Assembly: GCA_015295945.1 (NCBI GenBank)
Contig: DVED01000035.1
Span: 1 to 36,799, forward strand
Direction: 5' to 3'
From: Oscillatoriales cyanobacterium M59_W2019_021
GTDB taxonomy: Bacteria; Cyanobacteriota; Cyanobacteriia; Cyanobacteriales; Geitlerinemataceae
DNA: 36,799 nucleotides
Positions 20,845 to 34,142 of this stretch are shown here, piece after piece. Both the position numbers and the translations under genes were made by a program. Positions within the stretch are counted from its first letter, which is position 1. Each line of letters starts with the position of its first letter. The notes under the pieces were generated by a model that saw only the letters and a list, made by a program, of their open reading frames with translations, did no database searches and was not told where the DNA came from.

Positions 20845-21498
20845 CTAGCGATCTTGAAGCTGTCCGTTGGCGTTAAATAAGAAACTGCTATCGAGATCGG
20901 TAGCCGTTTGTCCTTGAGGACTGCTCCAATTGAAAATCGCGAATGCCGCACTGGCGATCGCGGCAACCACGGCAAATACCATCCCCCCCCGTAAAGCTCG
21001 CACCTGGTTTTCCATTTGCTGCATGTACTTCCGCGCCATGTGCGTCCGCGTATCCAGGTGATTCAGTCGGGCATCTAACTCTTTAATCGGGGCGAGGTTC
21101 TCGTCGTTGGAACCCGTCCATTCTTGCAAAATCGCGCTCACTTTTTCCTCCAACTCGGTTTTGAGGCGATCAAACTGCTCTTCGTTGTTACGATCGCGTT
21201 GCAATTGGTCGCGAACGCCAGCCAGTTCGCTGCGAATTTCCGATAACCTCGACTCCATGAGGGCTTCGAGTTCCAGACAGCGTTGCTCGAACCGTTTCTC
21301 AATGCGATCGGTCTCTTCGAGATGAGTTTGAGCTTTGGCGGCGTACTCCTGCATTTGCTGGTAGGTGCGCCCGAAATCTTCAAACTGGGAAGGAATGCGA
21401 GCCAAACCTTCGAGAACCCCGAAGGATTTTTCCAAGTGGGTTTGCAGGGTTGCTAATTCTTGCTCGATATTTTCTAGCTCGTTAAGATGTTTGCCCAT
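20845..21498 (-). CDS. Coiled-coil protein with C-terminal membrane helix
   Basis: With ATG 21498 the product has 217 residues and begins MGKHLNELENIEQELATLQT. Residues 1-165 or so are rich in Glu, Leu, Gln and Arg with heptad spacing and form an extended coiled coil. A single hydrophobic helix (about 171-189, GGMVFAVVAAIASAAFAIF) near the C-terminus anchors it, leaving a 28-residue tail. The frame continues upstream of 21498 without family-like sequence. It is the last gene of the phototaxis cluster, 80 nt after the receiver gene. A structural or localisation role at the membrane with the signalling complex is inference from position only. Confidence 0.7.
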   Translation of the reverse strand: MGKHLNELENIEQELATLQTHLEKSFGVLEGLARIPSQFEDFGRTYQQMQEYAAKAQTHLEETDRIEKRFEQRCLELEALMESRLSEIRSELAGVRDQLQRDRNNEEQFDRLKTELEEKVSAILQEWTGSNDENLAPIKELDARLNHLDTRTHMARKYMQQMENQVRALRGGMVFAVVAAIASAAFAIFNWSSPQGQTATDLDSSFLFNANGQLQDR

Positions 21499-21578
21499 TG
21501 TATTTGCATCCTTATTTTCTGTAAAAGTCTTTAACGTTTGCCGAACTTGCCAGGTCGGAAGTTCCCGGAGAGGGAAAA

Positions 21579-22586
21579 TTACCGCGTTAATGCCCGATCG
21601 AAACCGCGTTGTACCGCATCGATCTGAGTTCCCAGAGCCAGACACGTCTGGCTAAAGTGCCGCAAGCGACGGATTCGCCACAGCGCCTTCAAGGTTTGCG
21701 CGGTAGTAGACTCCGCACCGAACAGGCGTTCGGCTTCGGCGATGAGCAACGGCAATCCCTCATCGCTATCGAACGGACTCTCGACGGGGGTCAGCCAAGT
21801 AAAAGCGTCTTCGGGTTTCAATTGCGCCCCTTCTCGGTAAAAGAAGAGCAGATCCTCCATCGACAAGCCTTGTTTGGTTGCCTCTTTGAATCCGAAGCGC
21901 AAATATTGGAATGCCGAAAGGGTATGCCCTTGGTTGCGGTGGGACAGCACTCCGGCTAAGTACAAGGCACTGAGATTGGTGGGGTGTTGTCGCAGGTACC
22001 CAGTCAAGCCAGCGCACAACTGGCTTTCGGCTTCTGACGATCGCGTGCGACTGACGAACTCAACCAGTGCCTGACCGTCAAACCGATCGAGCAGCAGGGG
22101 CAACTCCGGATCGAGTTGTGCTGGATCGATCGCCGCCGACGGTTCCTCCTGACCGGAGCTTCCGTCATTTGAGGACACTCGCGCCATCATTTTGTCGAAC
22201 AGTCCCGGTCCCATTTGGCTGTAACCTTTGTAAACCGAGCGAATGGTGTTGGCGACATCTTCGGCGGCGGTATTTTTGAGCAGATAGCCTTTGGCTCCGG
22301 CGCGAATGGCGTTGGAGAGGTAGGTTTCGCTGTCGTACCCGCTCAACACGATGACTTTGGTGTCGGGAAAACGCTGGCAGATAATTCCGGTAGCGGCAAT
22401 CCCGTCCATCCCCGGCATCTGGATATCGAGGAGGACGATATCCGGGCTGAGGCTTTCCACTTGCTCGATCGCGGTTTGGCTGTCGTGAGCCGTTCCCACC
22501 ACTTCGAGATCGGGTTCTTTCTCTAACCAATTTTGCAAGACTTGGCAGAGAATCGCTTGGTCATCGACTAGTAAGATCCGAATCAT
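21579..22586 (-). CDS. Response regulator lacking an HTH, helical C-terminal domain
   Basis: A 335-residue protein. Residues 1-120 are a NarL-like receiver: acidic pocket D8/D9, phosphoacceptor D54 in IVLLDIQMPGMDG, LSGYDSE and K104 in GYLLKNTAAED. The usual LuxR helix-turn-helix is absent. After a linker (GYSQMGPGLFDKMMARV) there is an approximately 190-residue helical region with TPR-like features (LTGYLRQHPTNLSALYLAGV, SAFQYLRFGFKEATKQGL). The output is therefore probably protein interaction rather than DNA binding. It lies 53 nt downstream of the PixL-type kinase gene and is probably phosphorylated by it. A PixE/PilG-like motility role is inferred. Confidence 0.82.
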   Translation of the reverse strand: MIRILLVDDQAILCQVLQNWLEKEPDLEVVGTAHDSQTAIEQVESLSPDIVLLDIQMPGMDGIAATGIICQRFPDTKVIVLSGYDSETYLSNAIRAGAKGYLLKNTAAEDVANTIRSVYKGYSQMGPGLFDKMMARVSSNDGSSGQEEPSAAIDPAQLDPELPLLLDRFDGQALVEFVSRTRSSEAESQLCAGLTGYLRQHPTNLSALYLAGVLSHRNQGHTLSAFQYLRFGFKEATKQGLSMEDLLFFYREGAQLKPEDAFTWLTPVESPFDSDEGLPLLIAEAERLFGAESTTAQTLKALWRIRRLRHFSQTCLALGTQIDAVQRGFDRALTR

Positions 22587-22639: not shown

Positions 22640-25600
22640 CTAAGCGGTGGCGGGTTCGCGGGTGACGGTTTCCAGGGTTTGGAGCAGCGTTTGCTCGTTA
22701 TACGGTTTGGAAAAATAGGCGGTAGCGCCCAAACTCAATGCCAGTTGGCGGTGTTTGTTCCCCGTCCGGGAGGTGAGCATCACCACGGGCAGATCCTTGA
22801 ACGTGTCCTGAGCCTTGATTTGGGCTAAAAAGCCGTATCCGTCGAGGCGCGGCATTTCGATATCGCAAATTGCCGCTCGCACGTTCAAGCCGTTGCCGAG
22901 TTTGTCCAACGCATCTTGACCATCTCGAGCTTGTTCGACGAGATATCCGGCTTTTTCCAGGGTGAGTGCCAGGAAACGACGGACGTTGATAGAGTCGTCC
23001 ACGATCAAAATTGTTTGTCGTTGAGAGAGCGAAAGGTTGGGAGCGGTCTCCGGGACGGGCAGTAGAATTTTGGGCGGGACATCCGGGGCGGGGGGCATCG
23101 GCGATCGTTTCGGGTTGGCAACCCGCTCCAGGAATTCGGGAACGTTGACCAGGGGAACGACGCGACCGTTGCCCAAGATGGTGCAACCGGAAAAACCGGG
23201 GGGGAGGGGGAAGGCGCCTTCTACCTGGCGAATAGCAACTTCTCGATCGCCCCAGCAGCGATTGACGGCAATTGCCACGGGTCGATCGCCGCGATCGACG
23301 ATCAAGGCGGTGGGAATGCCGATGGTGGGCGGGGTTTCCAGTTCCGCTGGCGGATTGGGGCAGCGAAACTCCAGCCAGCGTTCGGGACGCACCAAGGGCA
23401 GTTCTGCGCCATCCCAGCGCAACACCTCGCTGCCGTCGGCTCCACGGGCAACTGTCGAGAGCGGCGAAACGATCTCGCGCACGGTGTCGGCGGGAAATGC
23501 CATCAGCATCCCGCTGCTTTCTGCGATTAGCACCCGTGTCACCGAGAGGGTAAAGGGTAGCCACAGGGTAAAGGTGGTTCCCTCGCCCGGTTGGGTCTCC
23601 ACTTGTATTTCGCCGCGCACCTGTTTGAGGTTGTTGCGGACGACATCCATGCCGACCCCCCGACCGGATAAATCGCTCACTTTTTCTTTGGTACTGAAAC
23701 CGGGCTCGAAGATCAGCGACAGCAAGTCGCGATCGCTGGCGGCATCGAGCAAGTCGGCATCCAGTCCCATTTCCACGGCGCGATCGCGGATTTTCTCCAC
23801 GGGAATGCCGCCGCCATCGTCGCGGAGGATAATTTGCGTGCGGTTGCTGTGATGGCTGGCGCGAATTTCGATCGTCCCCCGTTCCGGTTTGCCCCGTTCC
23901 CGCCGGGTTTGGGGATCTTCGATGCCGTGGTCGAAGGCATTGCGCAGCAAGTGCATCAGCGGATCGTGCAACTGTTCCAAAATGTTGCGATCAACGAGGG
24001 TCGTCCCCCCCGAAATTTTTAAGTCTACGGGTTTGCCGTATTGCAAGCTCAACTCGCGCAACGCTCGGGGAAAGCGATCGACGATATCGGACAGGGGACG
24101 CATCCGCACCCGATCGAGGTTGGCTTGCAGTTGTTTGATGGTTTTATTCAGGTTGTGGGTGGTTTGCTCCGTCTCGTTGGCGCTCAGTTCCAAGTCCCCG
24201 GTCACTTCCTGGATTTGGACGACGGTTTCCATCACTTCCACCAACCGCAGGTGAGCGTCGTTATAGCGATCGAGTTCCAGCAAGTCGAATTCGGGCAGGG
24301 CATCGTCCCGGTCGAACGATGCCATCGGCGACCCTTCCCGAGGGGAGACGCGGTGCTGAGACTGCGCCAGAGTTTTATTGCTCTCCAATTGCAGTTGGGC
24401 TGTGCTGTGTTCGAGCAGCTGTACCCGCCGACTCAGGGAAGCGATCAAACCGCGCAGCCGGGAAAACTGCACGTCGAGACCGTTGCGCTCGATAATCAGT
24501 TCGGCGAGCAAGTCGTTGAGTTGTTCCAAACGCTTGACCGACACCCGCACCGTGGCATCCGCATTGTCCGACTCGGGGGCAGCGGGCGCGATTTCGGGTT
24601 CTCGCTCTAAACTCGCCAGATCCACCCCTTCGAGTTCTTCGGGGGGGATCTCCGGTGCGGCAGCGGGCGGTTGCCCAACGGCAAGGGCGAACGGTTCGTC
24701 CGGGGAGAAGCCGTTCTCGCCGGAAGCGGCGAGGAAATTCTCGAGAACGGTTTCGTCGTCTTCGTTTGAGGGATCTTCATCCCACTCGCTCTCGACGGTA
24801 GCTGCGATCGGTTCTTCAGAGTCGGCGATGGTTTCTGAGGCGGGAACGATTTCCTGGGTTGGGGCAACCTCGAGATCGTCCCAATTCTCGATCGCGTCCC
24901 CAGAGAGATCTTTCTCCCATTGCGCGAACGGATCTTCCCAGGTTACCATCTCCGGAGTGGGGATCTCTTCCGGTAAAGGTTCGACGGCATCTGCCCCCGT
25001 TACCATTGTTGCCGGAGGAAGGTCTTTTTCGAGTAACTCGAAAGGATCTTCCCAGGTTGCCATTGAGGGCGCGGGGGTTTCTTCTGGCAAAGGTTCGACC
25101 GACTCTTCCCCGGTTCCCATCGCTGCCGGAGGGAGGTCTTTTTCGAGTAACTCGAAGGGATCTTCCCAAGTTTCGATCGCCGGAGCGGGTGTGCCTCCAG
25201 CAATTGCCGTCGGCAGTAAGTCGAATTGTCCGGTGAGGATCAGCGCTTGCGATCGCCGCCACGCCGACAACGCCTCCCGAGCGATATCTTCCACCCGAGT
25301 GGGTTCGGCATGCAACCGCGCCGTCACCGACTCGCACAGTTGGTAGAACGCCTCGATTTGCAGCATTTCGCCCAACCCGCCCAATTCTTGCGCCAAAATT
25401 GCTACTTCTTCTGGCAAGCAAGGTTTTTCTGGGTTGGCGAGAACCGACTCCAGCCGTTCCAAGCAGCCTTCCACCTCGGTTTCAAACAGCAAGAAAATCA
25501 CATCCTGTCCGTCTTCGGGCATGAGGACGGAACTGGCGTCTTCTTCCTGGGGAGCGCCCAATTGCTCGGAGAGGCGATCGAAAATCGGTGCGGCGCGTTC

Positions 25601-25978
25601 GAGCAGTTCGGGACAGTCGAAGCTAGATGGGTTGCCGGGGAACAGAGATTCGCGATCGATCTCGATGGTTTCCCCCAGACAGTCTACTGCCGCCAGCAGC
25701 AGCCGCTCGAGTTCGCCGTCGATTTCCACTGAATTTTTCTGAATCTTCAGCACCTTAAAGGAATCTTCCAAGCGGTGAGCGAACTGACTCAACACTTGAA
25801 ACCCCATCATCCCCGCGCCCCCTTTGATCGAGTGAGCGGCGCGCAAGGCGGCGTTAATTTCTTCGGCATCGACGCGGCGACTGGCTAACCCCAGCAGCGC
25901 CGATTCTAAGGTTTGCAAATACTCCTGAGCTTCGTCGAGAAACTGGAGTTTGATTTCGAGTTCTTTGTCTTGTGACAT
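22640..25978 (-). CDS. pixL: CheA-type hybrid histidine kinase, PixL-like
   Basis: A 1112-residue cytoplasmic kinase for phototaxis or pilus control. Domains in order: HPt with RAAHSIKGGAGMMGF (H49); a second HPt-like fold (about 155-245) whose motif LAQELGGLGEMLQ lacks the histidine; an acidic linker with three 38-residue tandem repeats around WEDPF (270-358); a dimerisation region starting VSVKRLEQLNDLLAELI; an HATPase with LLRNAFDHGIEDP, DDGGGIPVEKI and GRGVGMDVVRNN; a CheW-like domain; and a C-terminal receiver (ILIVDDSINVRRF, AICDIEMPRLDG, SKPY). This layout equals Synechocystis PixL/PilL. It is 15 nt downstream of the second receptor gene in the same operon. CheW and the receptors are expected to gate its activity. 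Confidence 0.92.
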   Translation of the reverse strand: MSQDKELEIKLQFLDEAQEYLQTLESALLGLASRRVDAEEINAALRAAHSIKGGAGMMGFQVLSQFAHRLEDSFKVLKIQKNSVEIDGELERLLLAAVDCLGETIEIDRESLFPGNPSSFDCPELLERAAPIFDRLSEQLGAPQEEDASSVLMPEDGQDVIFLLFETEVEGCLERLESVLANPEKPCLPEEVAILAQELGGLGEMLQIEAFYQLCESVTARLHAEPTRVEDIAREALSAWRRSQALILTGQFDLLPTAIAGGTPAPAIETWEDPFELLEKDLPPAAMGTGEESVEPLPEETPAPSMATWEDPFELLEKDLPPATMVTGADAVEPLPEEIPTPEMVTWEDPFAQWEKDLSGDAIENWDDLEVAPTQEIVPASETIADSEEPIAATVESEWDEDPSNEDDETVLENFLAASGENGFSPDEPFALAVGQPPAAAPEIPPEELEGVDLASLEREPEIAPAAPESDNADATVRVSVKRLEQLNDLLAELIIERNGLDVQFSRLRGLIASLSRRVQLLEHSTAQLQLESNKTLAQSQHRVSPREGSPMASFDRDDALPEFDLLELDRYNDAHLRLVEVMETVVQIQEVTGDLELSANETEQTTHNLNKTIKQLQANLDRVRMRPLSDIVDRFPRALRELSLQYGKPVDLKISGGTTLVDRNILEQLHDPLMHLLRNAFDHGIEDPQTRRERGKPERGTIEIRASHHSNRTQIILRDDGGGIPVEKIRDRAVEMGLDADLLDAASDRDLLSLIFEPGFSTKEKVSDLSGRGVGMDVVRNNLKQVRGEIQVETQPGEGTTFTLWLPFTLSVTRVLIAESSGMLMAFPADTVREIVSPLSTVARGADGSEVLRWDGAELPLVRPERWLEFRCPNPPAELETPPTIGIPTALIVDRGDRPVAIAVNRCWGDREVAIRQVEGAFPLPPGFSGCTILGNGRVVPLVNVPEFLERVANPKRSPMPPAPDVPPKILLPVPETAPNLSLSQRQTILIVDDSINVRRFLALTLEKAGYLVEQARDGQDALDKLGNGLNVRAAICDIEMPRLDGYGFLAQIKAQDTFKDLPVVMLTSRTGNKHRQLALSLGATAYFSKPYNEQTLLQTLETVTREPATA
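24905..25171 (-). repeat. 114-bp tandem repeat in the pixL linker, 2.3 copies
   Basis: Units start at protein residues 270, 308 and 346. Each begins TWEDPF, followed by ELLEKDLPP (AQWEKDL in the last) and VEPLPEE. The period is 38 codons. The DNA is also conserved: GGTCTTTTTCGAGTAACTCG occurs at 25021 and again at 25135 (plus-strand reading). Confidence 0.85.
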
Positions 25979-25993
25979 TTGTTTCTACTCCAG

Positions 25994-28900
25994 TTACGAA
26001 TCAACTTTGAACGTCCCCACCGAGGTCTGCAATTGTTGGGCGATTTCCACCGTCTGCCGCAGGTTTTCGGAAACGTGGCTCGAGGCATCGGCGGTGCGCG
26101 TCGAAACCTGGGCGATGGCTTTCATCAAATTGGAGACGGTTTCGGAGGTCTGCACCTGGGAAACCGTCGAGTCGGAGATCGATCGCACCAACTCGTCGAT
26201 TTGCCGGGACACCTGCACGATTTGCGACAAGCTCTGTTTGGCATTTTCCACCAGGTGCGTCCCTTCCACCACCTGAGCGGTACTCTGCTCCATGGCTTCC
26301 ACCACCTGCGCCGTTTCCAATTGGATGTTTTCCACGATCCGTTCGATTTCTTTGGTGGCGTTGGCGGAACGAGCGGCGAGTTCGCCCACCTCTTCGGCAA
26401 CCACCGCGAACCCCTGACCCTCTTCTCCGGCACGAGCGGCTTCGATCCCGGCGTTGATCGCCAGCAGGTTAGTTTGCAAGGCGATTTGGTCGATCAGGGA
26501 GACCACCTTAGAAATTTGTTGGGAGGATTCCCCGAGCTGTTTCACTTTTTTCGCCGTGCTGGCAACGGTTTCCCGCAGGTTCAAGATATTCGCCACCGTC
26601 CGATCCATTGCTACCCCTCCCGATTCGGCGGTATTCGATGCCATCTTCGCCACCTCGGCGGCTCGGCGGGCGTTTTGCGCCACTGCTTGGATCGATCGGG
26701 TCATCTCCTCCACGGAATCCAGGGTGCGGGTGGTTTCGGCGGCTTGTTGCAGCGCTTCTTCGGTGAGTTGGCGCATGGCGGTTTCGTTTTCCCCCAGTGC
26801 CGAGTTCACCTGGCTGGCGGAGGTTTTCACCTGGGTGACGATTTGCCGCAAACTTTCGATAATCGAGTTGAAAAAGTCGGCGACGGTGCCGATGTCTCCG
26901 GCAGTGACGTCGGCGCGGACGGTTAAATCTCCCCGCGAGGCGCCTTCGACTTCGTCGAGCAAGGTGAGTAGCTGCATTTGCAGGGATTCTTTTTGTTTCC
27001 GCTGTTCTTCCGAGAGGGCTTCAGCTTCCAGGCGAGCTTGTTCCCGTCCGGCGAATAATTCCGCTTGCTCGAGGGCAAAGCCGACTTGGGTGGAAATTTG
27101 CCGGAATAGTTCGATTTCGGTGTCTTCCCAGTTGCGGGTTCCGGCGCAGTGGTGGGCGCACAGCAACCCGACCAACTTGTCATCGTAGATGATCGGAGCG
27201 ACGATGCTGGCGCGGATTTGAAAGCCTTCGAGGATGTCGCGGTGGCAGTCGGTCAGCCCTTCGGCGTCGATGTCGTTCATCGCCCGCACGCGACCGTTGC
27301 GGTAGCGATCGATCAGTCCTTCGCGGAAGGGATCTTCGACGGTTTCTCCCAAGATTTTGCGCCAGCGCCCGACAACGGATTCGGCGATAATCGTCCCGTG
27401 CCAGTTGTCGTGGAATTGGTAGACGATAACCCGATCGGTGTTCAGGGCAGCGCGCAGTCGATCGACGGCAGTTTGCAGGATTTCGTCTTTTTGTAGCGAT
27501 CGCCGCATTTGCGAGACGATTTCGTTAACCAGTTGAGATCGCGCGGTGGCGGCGGTTTGCCGATCGAGCAAGTCTTTCACCCGTTCCACCAAGTTGTTGA
27601 AGCTGTGGGCGAGGGTGCGGGTTTCGGCGGTTCCGGCGACTTCGGCGCGGGTGTCGAGATCTCCGCTCGCCACGCGATCGCTGGCATCGACCAGGCGATC
27701 GATGGGTTTGACCACTTGGCGGGCGATGGCGGCGACAATCGCGGTGACGACCGCGCCCACCGCCAGGAACATCCCGGCGAACAGCAATCCAGCGTTGCGT
27801 CCGGCGGCGGCAATTTCGGCTTCGCTGACGGAAACGGCGATCGCCCAGTTGCTATCGGGAATCGTCCCCAGAAGGTACAGCCGACCTTGGTGGGTGAATT
27901 GGGTTTCGAGAATCTCGAATTTTTGGTCTTCGTGCTGCACGCGACGGACGTTGACGGGAAATCCCGCTTCGCGGATCGCTTTTTTCAGATTGTCTCCGCC
28001 AAAACGCACCAGTTTTACTAGATCGCTCGCCCGTTGGGCAACGGTTTCTCCACCGAGAACTTCGTTGAGTTGCATGACTTGATTGCCTTTCAAGGTGGCA
28101 AAAGGAATCGCCTGTTCTCCGGCGGAAATCCCTAGCACCTGAGCTTCCTCTGAAGCAAACTGGACGGAATCATCAACTAAGTGCAGAACGTGGTGAAAAT
28201 CGGTGGCGGGAATCACGGCTTTCACCACCCCCAGAAAGGTCTGAGATGGGGGATCGACGATCGCACTGGTGATGTTTAGAGAGAAGGTATTTGCCGATAC
28301 GTCAAATTCGGGAATTAATTCCTGCTGCCGTCCGGTTTGGGTATTTTGCCACCAGGATTCGTCGCTTTGCACGAAATCGGACGGACGGCTGCTGTAAGCC
28401 AGGTTGAAACCGTGTTTGTCGGTGAAGAATAGCTCGGCGATCTCTCCAACTGCGGCAACTCGCTTGAGATAATCGTTGAGGGCTTGGTTGGGTTTGAGCA
28501 GTAAGGTGTTGGCAAACTGCTTTTCCAAGTCTTCGGTAGCCGCAGTGTCGAGCGCTTCGGTTTTCACTCGTTCGATCGCTGCTCGCGCCTCTTCGATGAC
28601 CAGGGGATTGGTCGCCACCAGCTCGGGCAGTTCGTCAACTTGTTCGAGCCACTCGCTGGCGGCTTCGCTGCCGATGAGGACTTGACCGCTCAATTGTTGG
28701 CGCGCCCGCTCGATGGCTTTTTGGGCGGTTAAGCTGTAGCCCAAGATCCCGGCAAGACCGAGGGGAATCAGAACGCCGGGGAGAATGCGCACCAGCAACT
28801 GACGGCGCAGCGTTTGACCCTGCCATTTGACCTCGGTGTGGGGGATCGATCGCCACATCATCTGTCCGCGCTTTGGGGAGGCGTCCTCGGCGGGATCGTC

Positions 28901-29029
28901 AAGGCGGGCAGATTGGGCAATTTCGCGATCTACAGCGTCTGAAGGGATCGCCAGCAAGTTTTCAGAAGAGCGATGACCGTTGCCATTGGCGGGATCGTCG
29001 GTGAGATGGAAGTCGATTTTGGGTGTCAT
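25994..29029 (-). CDS. pixJ2: Methyl-accepting receptor with GAF domain, PixJ2-like
   Basis: A 1011-residue transmembrane receptor. It has a cytoplasmic N-tail, TM1 (about 82-101), an extracytoplasmic dCache-like sensor (about 105-410), TM2 (about 413-436), a HAMP domain ([20 protein letters not shown]), a GAF domain (about 505-660), and a signalling coiled coil with the hairpin [20 protein letters not shown]. The GAF retains the cyanobacteriochrome-style [10 protein letters not shown] (C595/H596). However, the aspartate-containing motif is EDPF instead of DPCF, so the second cysteine is missing and Glu replaces the usual Asp. Chromophore binding is therefore doubtful. It lies between the PixJ1-like receptor and PixL, matching the Synechocystis pixJ1-pixJ2-pixL order. 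ATG 29029 gives [13 protein letters not shown]. Confidence 0.88.
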
Positions 29030-29106: not shown

Positions 29107-31968
29107 TTAAGCGCTGACTTTGAACGTGCCGACGGAGGTTTGCAGTTCTCGGGCAATCTCCACCGTCTGCCGTAGAGTTTCGGAAACTTGGCGGGAGGAA
29201 TCGGAGGTGCGCTCGGAAACCTTTGCGATTTCTTGCATCAGGGCAGAAACCACTTGCGAGGTCTCGGCTTGAGAAACGGTGGTGCCGGAAATCGACTGCA
29301 CCAACTCGTCGATCTGCTGGGAAACTCCCACAAGTTGCCCGAAGCTCTGTTTGGCATCGTCTACCAGGCGTGCGCCTTCGGCGACCTGCTCGGTGCTTTG
29401 CTCCATGGCGGTCACCACCTGCTTGGTTTCCCGCTGGATGTTTTCCAAAATCTGCTCGATTTCCTGGGTAGCATTGGCCGATTTCGTTGCCAGTTGACCG
29501 ACTTCTTCGGCAACCACGGCAAAGCCTCGGGCTTCTTCCCCGGCGCGAGCGGCTTCCAATCCGGCGTTGATTGCCAGGACGTTGGTTTGCAGCGACAGTT
29601 CGTTAATCGACGACACCACTTTGGCAATTTGCCGCGAGGAATCGCCCAATTGTTTCACTTTCTTGGCGGTTTCGCCGATGGTCATCCGCAGGTTGGAGAT
29701 TTTATGCGCCATGGCTTCGATGGCAATGCCGCCGGATTGCGCCGTGTTGGAGGCGGTGCGGGCGACGTCTGCCGCTTGGCTGGCGCGTTGGGCGACCTCT
29801 TGCATCGATCGAGTCATCCGTTCGACGGCATCGAGGGTGCGGGTGGTTTCCTCGGCTTGCTGGAGGGCTTCGCTCGCCAGTTGGCGGATGGCGACTTCGT
29901 TTTCGCCTAGGGACGAATTCACTTCCAGGGTGGATTGTTTGACTTGGGTGACGATCTGCCGCAAACTTTCGACGATCGAGTTGAAAAAGTCGGCAACCGT
30001 GCCGATTTCCCCTTCGGTGACGTCGGCACGCACGGTCAGATCTCCCAGGGCTGCCCCTTCAATATCTTCGAGCAGGTCGAGGAGTTGGCGGCGCAGGCTT
30101 TCCTGTTGTTGCTGTCGTTCGGCGGACAGGGCTTCGGCTTGCAGGCGGGCTTGTTCCCGTCCGGCAAACAGGTTGGCTTGTTCCAGGGCGAACCCGAGTT
30201 GGATGGCGACTTGACGCGCTAGGTCGATGTCGGCTTCCGACCAAGTGCGGGGTGCGGAGCATTGATGCACCACCAACAAGCCTAAGAGTTTGCTCTCGAC
30301 TAAAATGGGGGCGACTAAGTTGGCTTTGACGCCGAAGGGTTTGAGTTGGTTTTGGTGGCACTCGGTGAGTCCGGCGCGATCGATGTCTTCGGTGGCTTTG
30401 ACGCGACCTTGCTGGTACCGTTGGACGTAGTCTTTAGCAAAACAGGGATCGGCAATGCGAGCGTTTAAGGCGACGGGCCAACCGGGGGCGACGGATTCGG
30501 CGACGATCGTCCCCTGCCAGTTTTCGTCGAATCGGTACACCAAGGTGCGATCGGCGGCTAAGGCTTCTCGCAGACCGACCAGTGCCGCTTCCTTCATCCC
30601 ATCGGTGTCGGTCGCTCGGCGCAAGCTGGCGGTAATTTGGTTGAGTTGGCGGGCGCGTTCGGTTTCGGCACGTTGGCGCTGGGTTTGGGCAACCAGGAGA
30701 TCGGCCATTTGGTTGAAGGTTCCCGCCAGTTGTCCGACTTCATCTCGGGCAAAACCCCGCGCCCGCAATTGCCAATCGCCCCGCGCAAAACCTTCGGCAA
30801 TTTGTTGTAGTTTTTGAATGGGGTTGACGATCGATCGTCCCAACAAGGTCGCCAAAAGGAGATCGGCGCAGATGGCGAGGAGGGCAACGAGCAGTTGCAG
30901 TTTTAAGCTATTGCCCAACAGTCGATTCAAGGCGACTTCCGGCGTCCCTCGCACCAATACCGCCACGGGATTGTTGTTGATGTCGCTCAGGGCTTGGGCT
31001 GCCATGGTGTAGGTTTGGTTGCCGACGCCGACGCGCCGGGTGACGATTTCGCCCGAGGCGGTCGTGGCGTCTGCGAGTAAGCTGGTATCGGCGATCGGGG
31101 CGTCGGCAACTGGCTCGGCAGCCCCTCGGGGATCGTCGTCGAGGGCAGTGACCAGGCGGTATTCCCCGGAGGGTTGGTAGCTGTAAATGGCGCTATATCC
31201 GCCTTGAAACCGTTCGACGGTTTTTTCCACGATGGGGGATTTGACCAGATCTCCGGAAACCAACACCCCGAGGACGGCTTGGGTTTGGGGATCGCGAACG
31301 GGAGTAAAGGTATAGCGGATCGGCAAGTCGGCGTCGGGCAGTCCGTCGGGCAGGGGAGGCGACTCCCGTTGCAATTCGGCTCGAGTGACGATGGCGCTGG
31401 TTTTGAGCTGGCGGGGATTGTTGAGGACTTGCGCCACCCAGTTGTTGGGGTTGAATTCTTCTCCAGTGCGATCGGCGTTGGCATTGGCAATAATGCGCGA
31501 GTCCGCACCGACTAAGGTGGCGTATTCGATATTCCGCGCTTGGATTTCGTTGCGGAGAATTTGCTTCACTCGCTCTCGGATCTCGGGGGTTAACGCTCGA
31601 TCTTCGGCAGCCGCTTTCGCCGCTTCGATGATGGCGGCGTTATCGGACTGTCCCCGAAACCCAAACCCCATTTGATCGATTTTAATATCGTAGTGAACCT
31701 GGGCGATCGCCAGTTCCGATCGGGCTTGGTTCAGGAGTTGGGTGCGTCCTCCGGCGACGATCAGCCACGATCCCACTCCCACCAGACCGACGATGGAAAT
31801 GGCTTCGGAGGCCAACAAACCGACGAGTTGCTTGCGCTTGACGGGCAGGTTTTCAAACCACTGCCACAGGGGAGATGGGGAGGCGGGATGGGAAGTGCGA
31901 TCGGAAATGGGGCGAGTCTCCAAGGCGGGATCTTGTGCCTTGAGCCGTGGATGCAAGTCAATGGTCAT
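29107..31968 (-). CDS. pixJ1: Phototaxis receptor with DXCF-type GAF, PixJ1-like
   Basis: With ATG 31968 ([14 protein letters not shown]) the receptor has 953 residues. It has TM1 (about 48-72), an extracytoplasmic sensor region, TM2 (about 357-377), HAMP ([20 protein letters not shown]), GAF (about 445-600) and a methyl-accepting signalling domain ([20 protein letters not shown]). The GAF carries ADPCFAKDY (D507, C509) and [10 protein letters not shown] (C537, H538). The two cysteines are exactly 28 residues apart, as C494 and C522 are in TePixJ. D507 is 30 before C537, as D291 is to C321 in AnPixJ. These are the landmarks of DXCF cyanobacteriochromes, usually blue/green sensing. Light reception for phototaxis via PixI/PixL is the likely role; bilin binding is inferred. 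The longer upstream frame (to 32046) has no family-like sequence. Confidence 0.9.
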
Positions 31969-32097
31969 AGTACATAAGCCGGGGTAACGGTTAAAGGAAA
32001 TGAAGAACGATCCCACAACCCGACATCGAGTTGAGGTCGATCGCATTTGTGCCTACAAGGGGTAGGTCAACTGTCGATGGGTGAAAGTCTGGGAAAT

Positions 32098-32598
32098 TTA
32101 GGTGCCGTGCAATAAAGGCGAGTGCAAGATCGCCGACACATCTAGCACCCACAATCGTTCTGGATGTCCGACGCAGCCGCGCGCGTAGGGGGCGATCTCC
32201 GGGCTGGCAGAAGCGGGCAGGGGACTGAGTTGTTCGTTGCTCAGTCGTACCATGCCTTCGATTTCTGGCACGACCAATCCGGCAGCCACCCCACCGACGC
32301 GCACCAGGACGGTGTTGTAGTTTTGGGCTTTGAACGCCCAAGCTGGAAACTGTAAAAGTTGGGGCAGGTCGATCGCCCATAACACTCGACTGCGCCGCTC
32401 GATCAAACCCAACAGGTATGGCGGTAAGTTGGGCATGGGCGTTAAGTGCGGCACGGGGATGACGACCGCTTCTTGCAAGTATCGCAGGGAAAGAATTGCC
32501 GGAGTGCGGTCATCGAGCCGCACTTTGAGGTAAGGGTGTCCGGCGGCTTTTTTGGAGAAGGAACGGCGAGAGGCGAGGAGAGCAGAGGAAGAGTTCAT
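32098..32598 (-). CDS. pixI: CheW-like adaptor, PixI-like
   Basis: A 166-residue adaptor that couples receptors to the CheA kinase. Conserved CheW features are YLKVRLDDRTPAILSLRYLQ, VVIPVPHLTPMPNLPPYLLG (the usual 'PMPN.P..l.Gl' segment), RSRVLWAIDLPQLL and GLVVPEIEGMVRL. The Ser/Ala/Arg-rich N-tail is probably flexible. ATG 32598 (MNSSSALLASRR) is chosen over TTG 32613 because it directly follows the pixH stop by four bases, implying translational coupling. Confidence 0.9.
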   Translation of the reverse strand: MNSSSALLASRRSFSKKAAGHPYLKVRLDDRTPAILSLRYLQEAVVIPVPHLTPMPNLPPYLLGLIERRSRVLWAIDLPQLLQFPAWAFKAQNYNTVLVRVGGVAAGLVVPEIEGMVRLSNEQLSPLPASASPEIAPYARGCVGHPERLWVLDVSAILHSPLLHGT

Positions 32599-32602
32599 GA
32601 GC

Positions 32603-32965
32603 TTAGGCGGCAACCGATTTGACCGCTCGAATTAATTGTTCTCGAGTAAAGGGTTTGGTGATGTACGCATCGGCACCTTGCTTCATCCCCCACAAGCGAT
32701 CGATTTCTTGATTTTTAGACGAGCAAATGACGATGGGAATTTTTTGGGTTTCGGGGGTTTGTTTCAGTTTTCGGCACAATTCAAATCCACTCATTCCCGG
32801 CATGACCACATCGGTGACGATCGCGTCCGGTTGTTTTTCAGTGGCTAAATTTAAGGCTTCTTGGGCGCCGATGGCGCTGATGACGCTATAGCCACTTTCT
32901 CGGAGATAGTGACTCATGAGTTCGCGTTCGGAAGGGGTGTCTTCAACAATTAAAATCGTAGTCAT
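32603..32965 (-). CDS. pixH: CheY-like receiver, PixH-like
   Basis: A 120-residue stand-alone receiver. TILIVEDTPSERELM supplies the acidic pocket, AIVTDVVMPGMSGFELC the phosphoacceptor D52, ICSSKNQE the switch Ser/Thr, and AYITKPFTREQL the lysine. It has no output domain. It probably shuttles phosphate from PixL to the pilus machinery or acts as a phosphate sink. Upstream in-frame ATGs (MSVTLMTT, MSSELVM) are possible starts; MTTILIVED fits receiver length best. It is coupled to pixI by a four-base gap. Confidence 0.92.
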   Translation of the reverse strand: MTTILIVEDTPSERELMSHYLRESGYSVISAIGAQEALNLATEKQPDAIVTDVVMPGMSGFELCRKLKQTPETQKIPIVICSSKNQEIDRLWGMKQGADAYITKPFTREQLIRAVKSVAA

Positions 32966-33137
32966 TAAAGTTACGCTCATAACAAGTTCGCTTGACAATT
33001 TAGGTGTTCTGTCTGCGGAGAATGTCCTGTGGGTCGGGCAATTCCCTCGCGTTGGGCTTTAACGGGGTTTAGCGCGAGAAACGATCGCCTCTTAAGTGGG
33101 CTGACGTTGCGTTGGCAACTGCCATCGTTTCTCGGGG

Positions 33138-34142
33138 TTAGGGTAAGTGTTTGAGAACGACATCGGTTAATTGTTCTTTGGTAAACGGTTTGGTTAAATA
33201 GTCTGACGCTCGCACGAGTTTGGCTTTGGCGCGATCGATAAATCCGGTGTTGCCCGTCACCATGACAATCGGGATTTTTTTGAACAACGGATGCCGTCTT
33301 AAGAGGGAACACAGTTCGTATCCATCTAATTTGGGCATCTCTACATCGAGCAAGACGATATCGGGTTTATGGCGGACGATTTGCATCAAAGCTTTTACCG
33401 GATCGTCGATGGCGAGGACGGAAAAGCGATCGTCATCTAAGTAGCTGCGAATCACCCGGACGATACTGGGATTGTCGTCGATGCAGGCAATGGTATAAGC
33501 CCGAGAACTCACTGAGCTATTTGGCTCGTCGATCGAGGGGTGATAAGCGGAGATTGCAGGAGATTGCAGGGAAACTGACGGAACGGTGGGAGCGGGAGGC
33601 GAACTCCAAATCGCTCGATCGGGTGGAAGTTGAGTCTCGGATGGCAAACTTTGGGTGCTTTGATAGGAGCGGGTTAAAGAGAGCAAATCCAGGTAACAAA
33701 ACTTCGGTAAGCGTTCCATTTCGTCGGATTCAACCGACGCGCGATCGATTCGATCGACTAACAACAAAGACCCGATCGTTTCTCTGGCTAAATCCCGAAC
33801 GAGCAGAGCCGCTCGCTCGCTGGAAAGGTAGTTTTGTCGCACTAGCCAGCAAATCGCTTGATAGTCGGGATTGGGAATGGAAACATTGGGGTCGAATAAC
33901 CGCGATCGCAACGGTTCTCGCAGGGAATGATACAGGGTGGAAAGATAGCGACTCAAATGGCGGTCGAGCCGATCGAAGGGTTCGATCGAACTGAAGGCAT
34001 GGACGAGTTTTCCAGCTTCCATGTGGAGCGACCAAGAGGTGGATGCGCTGGAAATTCGCAAACAACCTTTTAGGTCACTATGGATAACTTCAGACAACCA
34101 ATTTGGAAGATGAATCTTTTGAGAATAGGGATAGGCAGTCAT
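33138..34142 (-). CDS. pixG: PatA-type response regulator, PixG-like
   Basis: A 334-residue regulator. The N-terminal PATAN/DUF4388-like region (about 8-155) has KGCLRISSASTSWSLHMEAG, LVHAFSSIEPFDRLDRHLSR and WLVRQNYLSSERAALLVRDL, typical of PatA/PixG proteins. A Ser/Pro-rich linker (about 160-213) follows, then a C-terminal receiver: TIACIDDNPSIVRVI, D266 in IVLLDVEMPKLDG, VTGNTG and YLTKPF. In Synechocystis the equivalent first gene, pixG, is needed for positive phototaxis and PatA proteins act on motility or cell pattern. It is the first gene of this operon. The gap of about 170 nt to pixH contains no other gene. Confidence 0.9.
   Translation of the reverse strand: MTAYPYSQKIHLPNWLSEVIHSDLKGCLRISSASTSWSLHMEAGKLVHAFSSIEPFDRLDRHLSRYLSTLYHSLREPLRSRLFDPNVSIPNPDYQAICWLVRQNYLSSERAALLVRDLARETIGSLLLVDRIDRASVESDEMERLPKFCYLDLLSLTRSYQSTQSLPSETQLPPDRAIWSSPPAPTVPSVSLQSPAISAYHPSIDEPNSSVSSRAYTIACIDDNPSIVRVIRSYLDDDRFSVLAIDDPVKALMQIVRHKPDIVLLDVEMPKLDGYELCSLLRRHPLFKKIPIVMVTGNTGFIDRAKAKLVRASDYLTKPFTKEQLTDVVLKHLP

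Follow-up and report, generated by a model that had tools for sequence, protein, structure and literature searches.

A probable blue/green DXCF cyanobacteriochrome receptor of the PixJ lineage in a pix-type gene cluster of an Oscillatoriales cyanobacterium

The receptor gene and its cluster

The window analysed here, a stretch of 36,799 nucleotides from Oscillatoriales cyanobacterium M59_W2019_021, carries a pix-type cluster between positions 22640 and 34142. All of its genes lie on a single strand and, according to their Pfam matches, are ordered pixG-like, pixH-like, pixI-like, receptor, second GAF-MCP receptor and pixL-like CheA (Table 1). The PixL-like kinase scores 1088–1092 bits against the PixL proteins of Stenomitos (L063) and of an Oscillatoriophycideae MAG (L068), and the PixG-like regulator scores 290–292 bits against its counterparts at the same two loci. 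Stenomitos and other cyanobacteria have comparable clusters, whose PixL and PixG are close relatives. The PixG, PixH, PixI and PixL homologues that characterize the surroundings of a PixJ/tax1 receptor are thus all present and, as judged from its genes, the cluster corresponds to the tax1 type known from Synechocystis (PMC5812497).

Table 1. Positions of the genes and motifs discussed in the text
Feature	Position	Strand	Basis or remarks
PixL-like CheA hybrid kinase (Hpt, dimerisation, HATPase, CheW, receiver)	22640..25978	(-)	Pfam
Second GAF-MCP receptor (PixJ2 position)	25994..29029	(-)	Pfam; alignment to TePixJ
PixJ1-like methyl-accepting receptor, probable photoreceptor	29107..31968	(-)	Translations; Pfam HAMP, GAF and MCPsignal on the 979-aa reading
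GAF domain of the receptor, DXCF cyanobacteriochrome type	30145..30657	(-)	TePixJ identity; AF2 model; trees
C537-H538	30355..30360	(-)	Equivalent to TePixJ C522-H523
D-P-C-F motif (D507 and C509)	30439..30450	(-)	Equivalent to TePixJ D492 and C494; alignment without gaps
PixI-like CheW	32098..32613	(-)	Pfam CheW
PixH-like CheY receiver	32603..32998	(-)	Pfam Response_reg
PixG-like response regulator (N-terminal DUF4388 match, C-terminal receiver)	33138..34142	(-)	Pfam DUF4388, Response_reg

Synechocystis PixJ1 (TaxD1), compared here by its published description (PMC5812497), is likewise a CBCR-MCP protein encoded within a pixG-H-I-J-L type cluster, tax1 (pix). SyPixJ1 has two GAF domains, only the second of which binds PCB (PMC5812497), whereas the receptor in the window has one GAF domain and is followed by a second GAF-MCP gene. 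Two further genes follow pixL on the minus strand: 21579–22586 encodes a response regulator for which Pfam gave no output domain, and 20845–21645 a protein with only sub-cut-off Pfam matches. A search of NCBIfam gave only general MCP and response regulator matches, all below the cut-offs.

The receptor consists of an N-terminal membrane and periplasmic part, a HAMP domain, one GAF domain and an MCP signalling domain. HAMP and MCPsignal lie downstream of the membrane segments; the domains were assigned by Pfam and the membrane segments from hydrophobic stretches of the translation. The longest open reading frame begins upstream, at 32046, and encodes 979 amino acids; the ATG at 31968 is a plausible start and is counted as residue 1 throughout, except where the longest reading is named. 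In that longest reading, residues 48–470, covering the N-terminal and HAMP part, share 53% identity with a paralogue encoded elsewhere in this genome (G000:C184:26355–27710), so the receptor may have arisen by joining a sensor half common to both proteins to a GAF-MCP half.

Elsewhere in the genome there are two haem oxygenases, three matches to ferredoxin-dependent bilin reductases and three PilT-family ATPases above the curated cut-off. Two of the bilin reductase genes are adjacent (G000:C14:15857–17302) and the third lies on contig C154, a set that would fit phycoerythrobilin synthesis besides PcyA.

The GAF domain and its relation to TePixJ

Translation of the minus strand over 29107–31968 gives two segments, of 13 and 14 residues, that contain the D-P-C-F and C-H motifs reported in the earlier note. 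D507 is encoded by 30448–30450, C509 by 30442–30444 and C537 by 30358–30360, with H538 following directly. The spacing between C509 and C537 is 28 residues and that between D507 and C537 is 30, confirming the codons and distances originally given. The comparisons made at the time also hold: C494 and C522 of TePixJ, again 28 apart, are the two PVB linkage sites (PMC6955287), and the Asp-to-Cys spacing of AnPixJ, counted from its PDB sequence, is 30. Because the whole GAF domain is homologous to that of TePixJ, the motif match is far beyond chance and reflects homology. By analogy with TePixJ, C537 is predicted to hold the bilin permanently by a thioether to its A ring, and C509 to form a second, photolabile one at C10.

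TePixJ of Thermosynechococcus elongatus (PDB 3VV4, 4FOF, 4GLQ, 6PRU) is the best PDB match of the receptor GAF (phmmer, E 1.9e-46, 161 bits), with 74 of 150 residues identical (49%) in an ungapped alignment. It is also an MCP-type protein, with the same GAF fold, DPCF and C-H motifs at identical spacings and the same main pocket residues. Of the linkage and contact sites listed for TePixJ (PMC6955287), the six residues D492, C494, C522, H523, Q526 and N535 are all kept. Apart from the 49% identity of the GAF domain, the differences are LFGLL to LLGLL, a helix Leu to Phe, and the replacement by D513 and Y514 of H498 and W499, the residues bonded to the B-ring propionate in TePixJ (PMC6955287). 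Since position 498 is variable in the TePixJ clade defined below and Tyr occupies position 499 in 37 of its 41 rows, this Asp/Tyr pair appears typical of the clade and gives no sign of loss.

An AlphaFold2 model of the GAF domain, built from 50 related domains, has a mean pLDDT of 93.1. The top Foldseek match of the model was TePixJ 4FOF, and superposition on TePixJ 4GLQ gave an rmsd of 0.9 A over 144 columns and a TM score of 0.94 by target length. As the model was built without bilin, it points to a fold compatible with bilin binding rather than to a bound bilin. With this qualification, the domain has the bilin-type GAF fold and pocket of a DXCF cyanobacteriochrome, together with a canonical Cys at the A-ring site, followed by His (members of this class have His or Tyr), and a D-X-C-F Cys 28 residues before it. 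Assignment to the DXCIP cyanobacteriochromes, which have a D-X-C-I-P motif and no canonical Cys, was ruled out by the presence of the canonical Cys and by the DPCF motif.

The position of the domain among its relatives was determined with two trees. In the first (111 rows), the DXCF and Cys-His columns had been removed, so that the placement is independent of the motif columns; the receptor GAF fell within a 45-row TePixJ group (SH-aLRT 94). The smallest clade holding both it and TePixJ comprises 41 rows. All four of D, C494, F and C522 are kept in 41/41 of these rows and in 16/70 of the rows outside the clade, although some of the related loci were fetched with patterns including DPCFAKDY and ECHQNQLK, which inflates motif conservation within the clade; rows obtained by genome search are free of this bias. 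In the second, careful tree of 60 rows, the corresponding 36-row set had a support of 93/94, and the receptor GAF paired with a relative from Zarconia (96/83).

In both trees, then, the receptor GAF sits among DXCF domains, apart from red/green and non-bilin GAFs. Membership of a clade of non-bilin MCP GAFs, the placement named in the earlier note as contrary to its reading, is ruled out by the two trees and the pocket residues; when the trees were built, the domain grouped with TePixJ instead. The nearest tree relative belongs to a PixJ pair of Zarconia navalis LEGE 11467 (L061), and its GAF is 63% identical to that of the receptor. As in the window, this locus has two tandem GAF-MCP genes before a PixL-like gene. 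DPCF is intact in the second Zarconia receptor; in the window, the second receptor lacks the DXCF cysteine.

Could the GAF domain have lost its bilin, leaving the cysteines as a relic and the N-terminal domain, detecting an extracellular cue, as the receptor's only sensor? Loss of this kind does happen, in that the GAF of a full-length homologue from a related genome (L033, 47% identical) lacks both motif cysteines and has apparently lost bilin binding. The N-terminal half that the receptor has in common with the C184 paralogue would also suit such a role. However, the six TePixJ linkage and contact residues are intact, the domain groups with fully conserved DXCF domains and the genome contains bilin synthesis genes, and we regard this explanation as highly improbable.

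Two side observations were made during the comparison. A DPCF GAF of the PixJ lineage (L080:3468–3932) also occurs on a contig of a Chloroflexaceae-labelled MAG; this contig is probably cyanobacterial and misbinned. The first GAFs of some receptor arrays (L043, L045, L073 and L076) have D-X-C-I and carry Asp, Glu or Lys where the canonical Cys would be, and by sequence resemble the DXCIP group. Such DXCIP domains have been described as binding bilin through the DXC cysteine (PMC5578081), and the use of these first GAFs as a non-bilin control was therefore dropped.

Residues bearing on the colour pair

The earlier note had taken the Leu of KLLGLL as a replacement of the usual Trp of LWGLL, hinting at altered colour or lost binding. 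Neither part was borne out. In the 41-row TePixJ clade, Trp is found at this position in 0/41 rows and Leu, the commonest state, in 18/41, and TePixJ itself has Phe (LFGLL). Loss of bilin binding can therefore not be deduced from KLLGLL, and bilin binding within the PixJ lineage should not be judged by the LWGLL Trp.

For red/green colour tuning, it is instead the WXDXXL Trp that counts (PMC11284453). In the receptor GAF, the position of this Trp (W655 of NpR6012g4) is occupied by Ile, as in TePixJ, and that of the Leu by Phe. The absence of the WXDXXL Trp rules out a red/green (XRG) type. The XRG domains AnPixJg2, NpR6012g4 and Slr1393g3 share with the receptor the GAF bilin fold, the Asp motif and the canonical Cys-His; they differ in having WXDXXL and no second Cys, and they lie outside its clade.

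DXCF proteins usually convert PCB to PVB and are typically blue/green, with photoproducts ranging from teal to orange (PMC5578081). A Phe on beta2 has been tied to teal photoproducts (PMC5578081, PMC5240096), and the receptor GAF has Ile at this position. Together with the Ile at the WXDXXL Trp position, as in TePixJ, this speaks for a green product like that of TePixJ. His follows the canonical Cys both here and in the PVB-binding TePixJ, whereas 11/41 relatives in the clade have Tyr in its place. Because of this His and the beta2 Ile, a blue/green pair is our best guess for the receptor GAF, held with moderate confidence.

That the receptor is a dual-cysteine bilin sensor of this lineage but with another colour pair, for example blue/orange (PCB not turned into PVB) or blue/teal, seems unlikely. 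It would be in keeping with the variation in photoproduct colour among DXCF members (PMC5578081), with the replacement of H498 and W499 and with a helix position that is Phe here and Leu in TePixJ; against it stand the beta2 Ile, in place of the Phe tied to teal, and the His following the canonical Cys. Given the same helix difference, the exact colour of the blue/green receptor may still differ from that of TePixJ.

The neighbouring receptor and the proposed role

The second GAF-MCP receptor has a different motif. Near 27325–27335 its GAF domain reads VEDP-FREG, a one-residue gap removing the DXCF cysteine. The canonical Cys-His is kept (D-C-H), and TePixJ Q526 and N535 are replaced by I and S. 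In the second tree this domain groups weakly (85/76) with the first GAFs of PixJ-like proteins from Leptolyngbyaceae and others. The gap is common to these first GAFs, and the loss of the cysteine may therefore be old.

With the canonical Cys-His present and the DXCF cysteine missing (DP-F), the second receptor could be a bilin sensor with a single cysteine and a colour pair shifted to the red. We tentatively raise the possibility that the adjacent genes form a two-colour pair, with the first receptor dual-cysteine and blue/green. A literature search for pixJ1 together with pixJ2 gave no match.

The earlier proposal of a PixJ-type DXCF receptor is supported: the sequence and pocket residues, the modelled fold, the trees, the neighbouring genes and the genes for bilin synthesis all point the same way. 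We consider it very probable that the receptor is a dual-cysteine, phycoviolobilin-binding blue/green DXCF cyanobacteriochrome of the PixJ lineage serving pilus-driven phototaxis; its bilin binding, photocycle, colours and signal output are modelled on TePixJ and SyPixJ1. By this analogy, C537 would attach phycocyanobilin through the A ring, and C509 would form a second thioether at C10; with the bilin isomerised to phycoviolobilin, the dark state would absorb blue light. Such light would isomerise C15=C16 and break the C509 link, producing a green-absorbing form. The change would travel through helices to the MCP domain and control a relay from PixL (CheA) to PixH and PixG (CheY-like), which would bias type IV pilus activity and hence phototaxis.

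Since it is very like TePixJ and lies in a matching light-taxis cluster, the receptor most likely helps the cell to steer by blue and green light. It is a well-supported addition to a characterized photoreceptor family, and is ordinary save for the possible two-colour pairing; nothing at the locus but the second receptor is even mildly unusual. If the pairing is real, both receptors would feed the same PixL kinase and direction would be set by the colour ratio. A dual-cysteine receptor beside a single-cysteine neighbour would be a natural pair for testing the effect of the second cysteine on colour in phototaxis.
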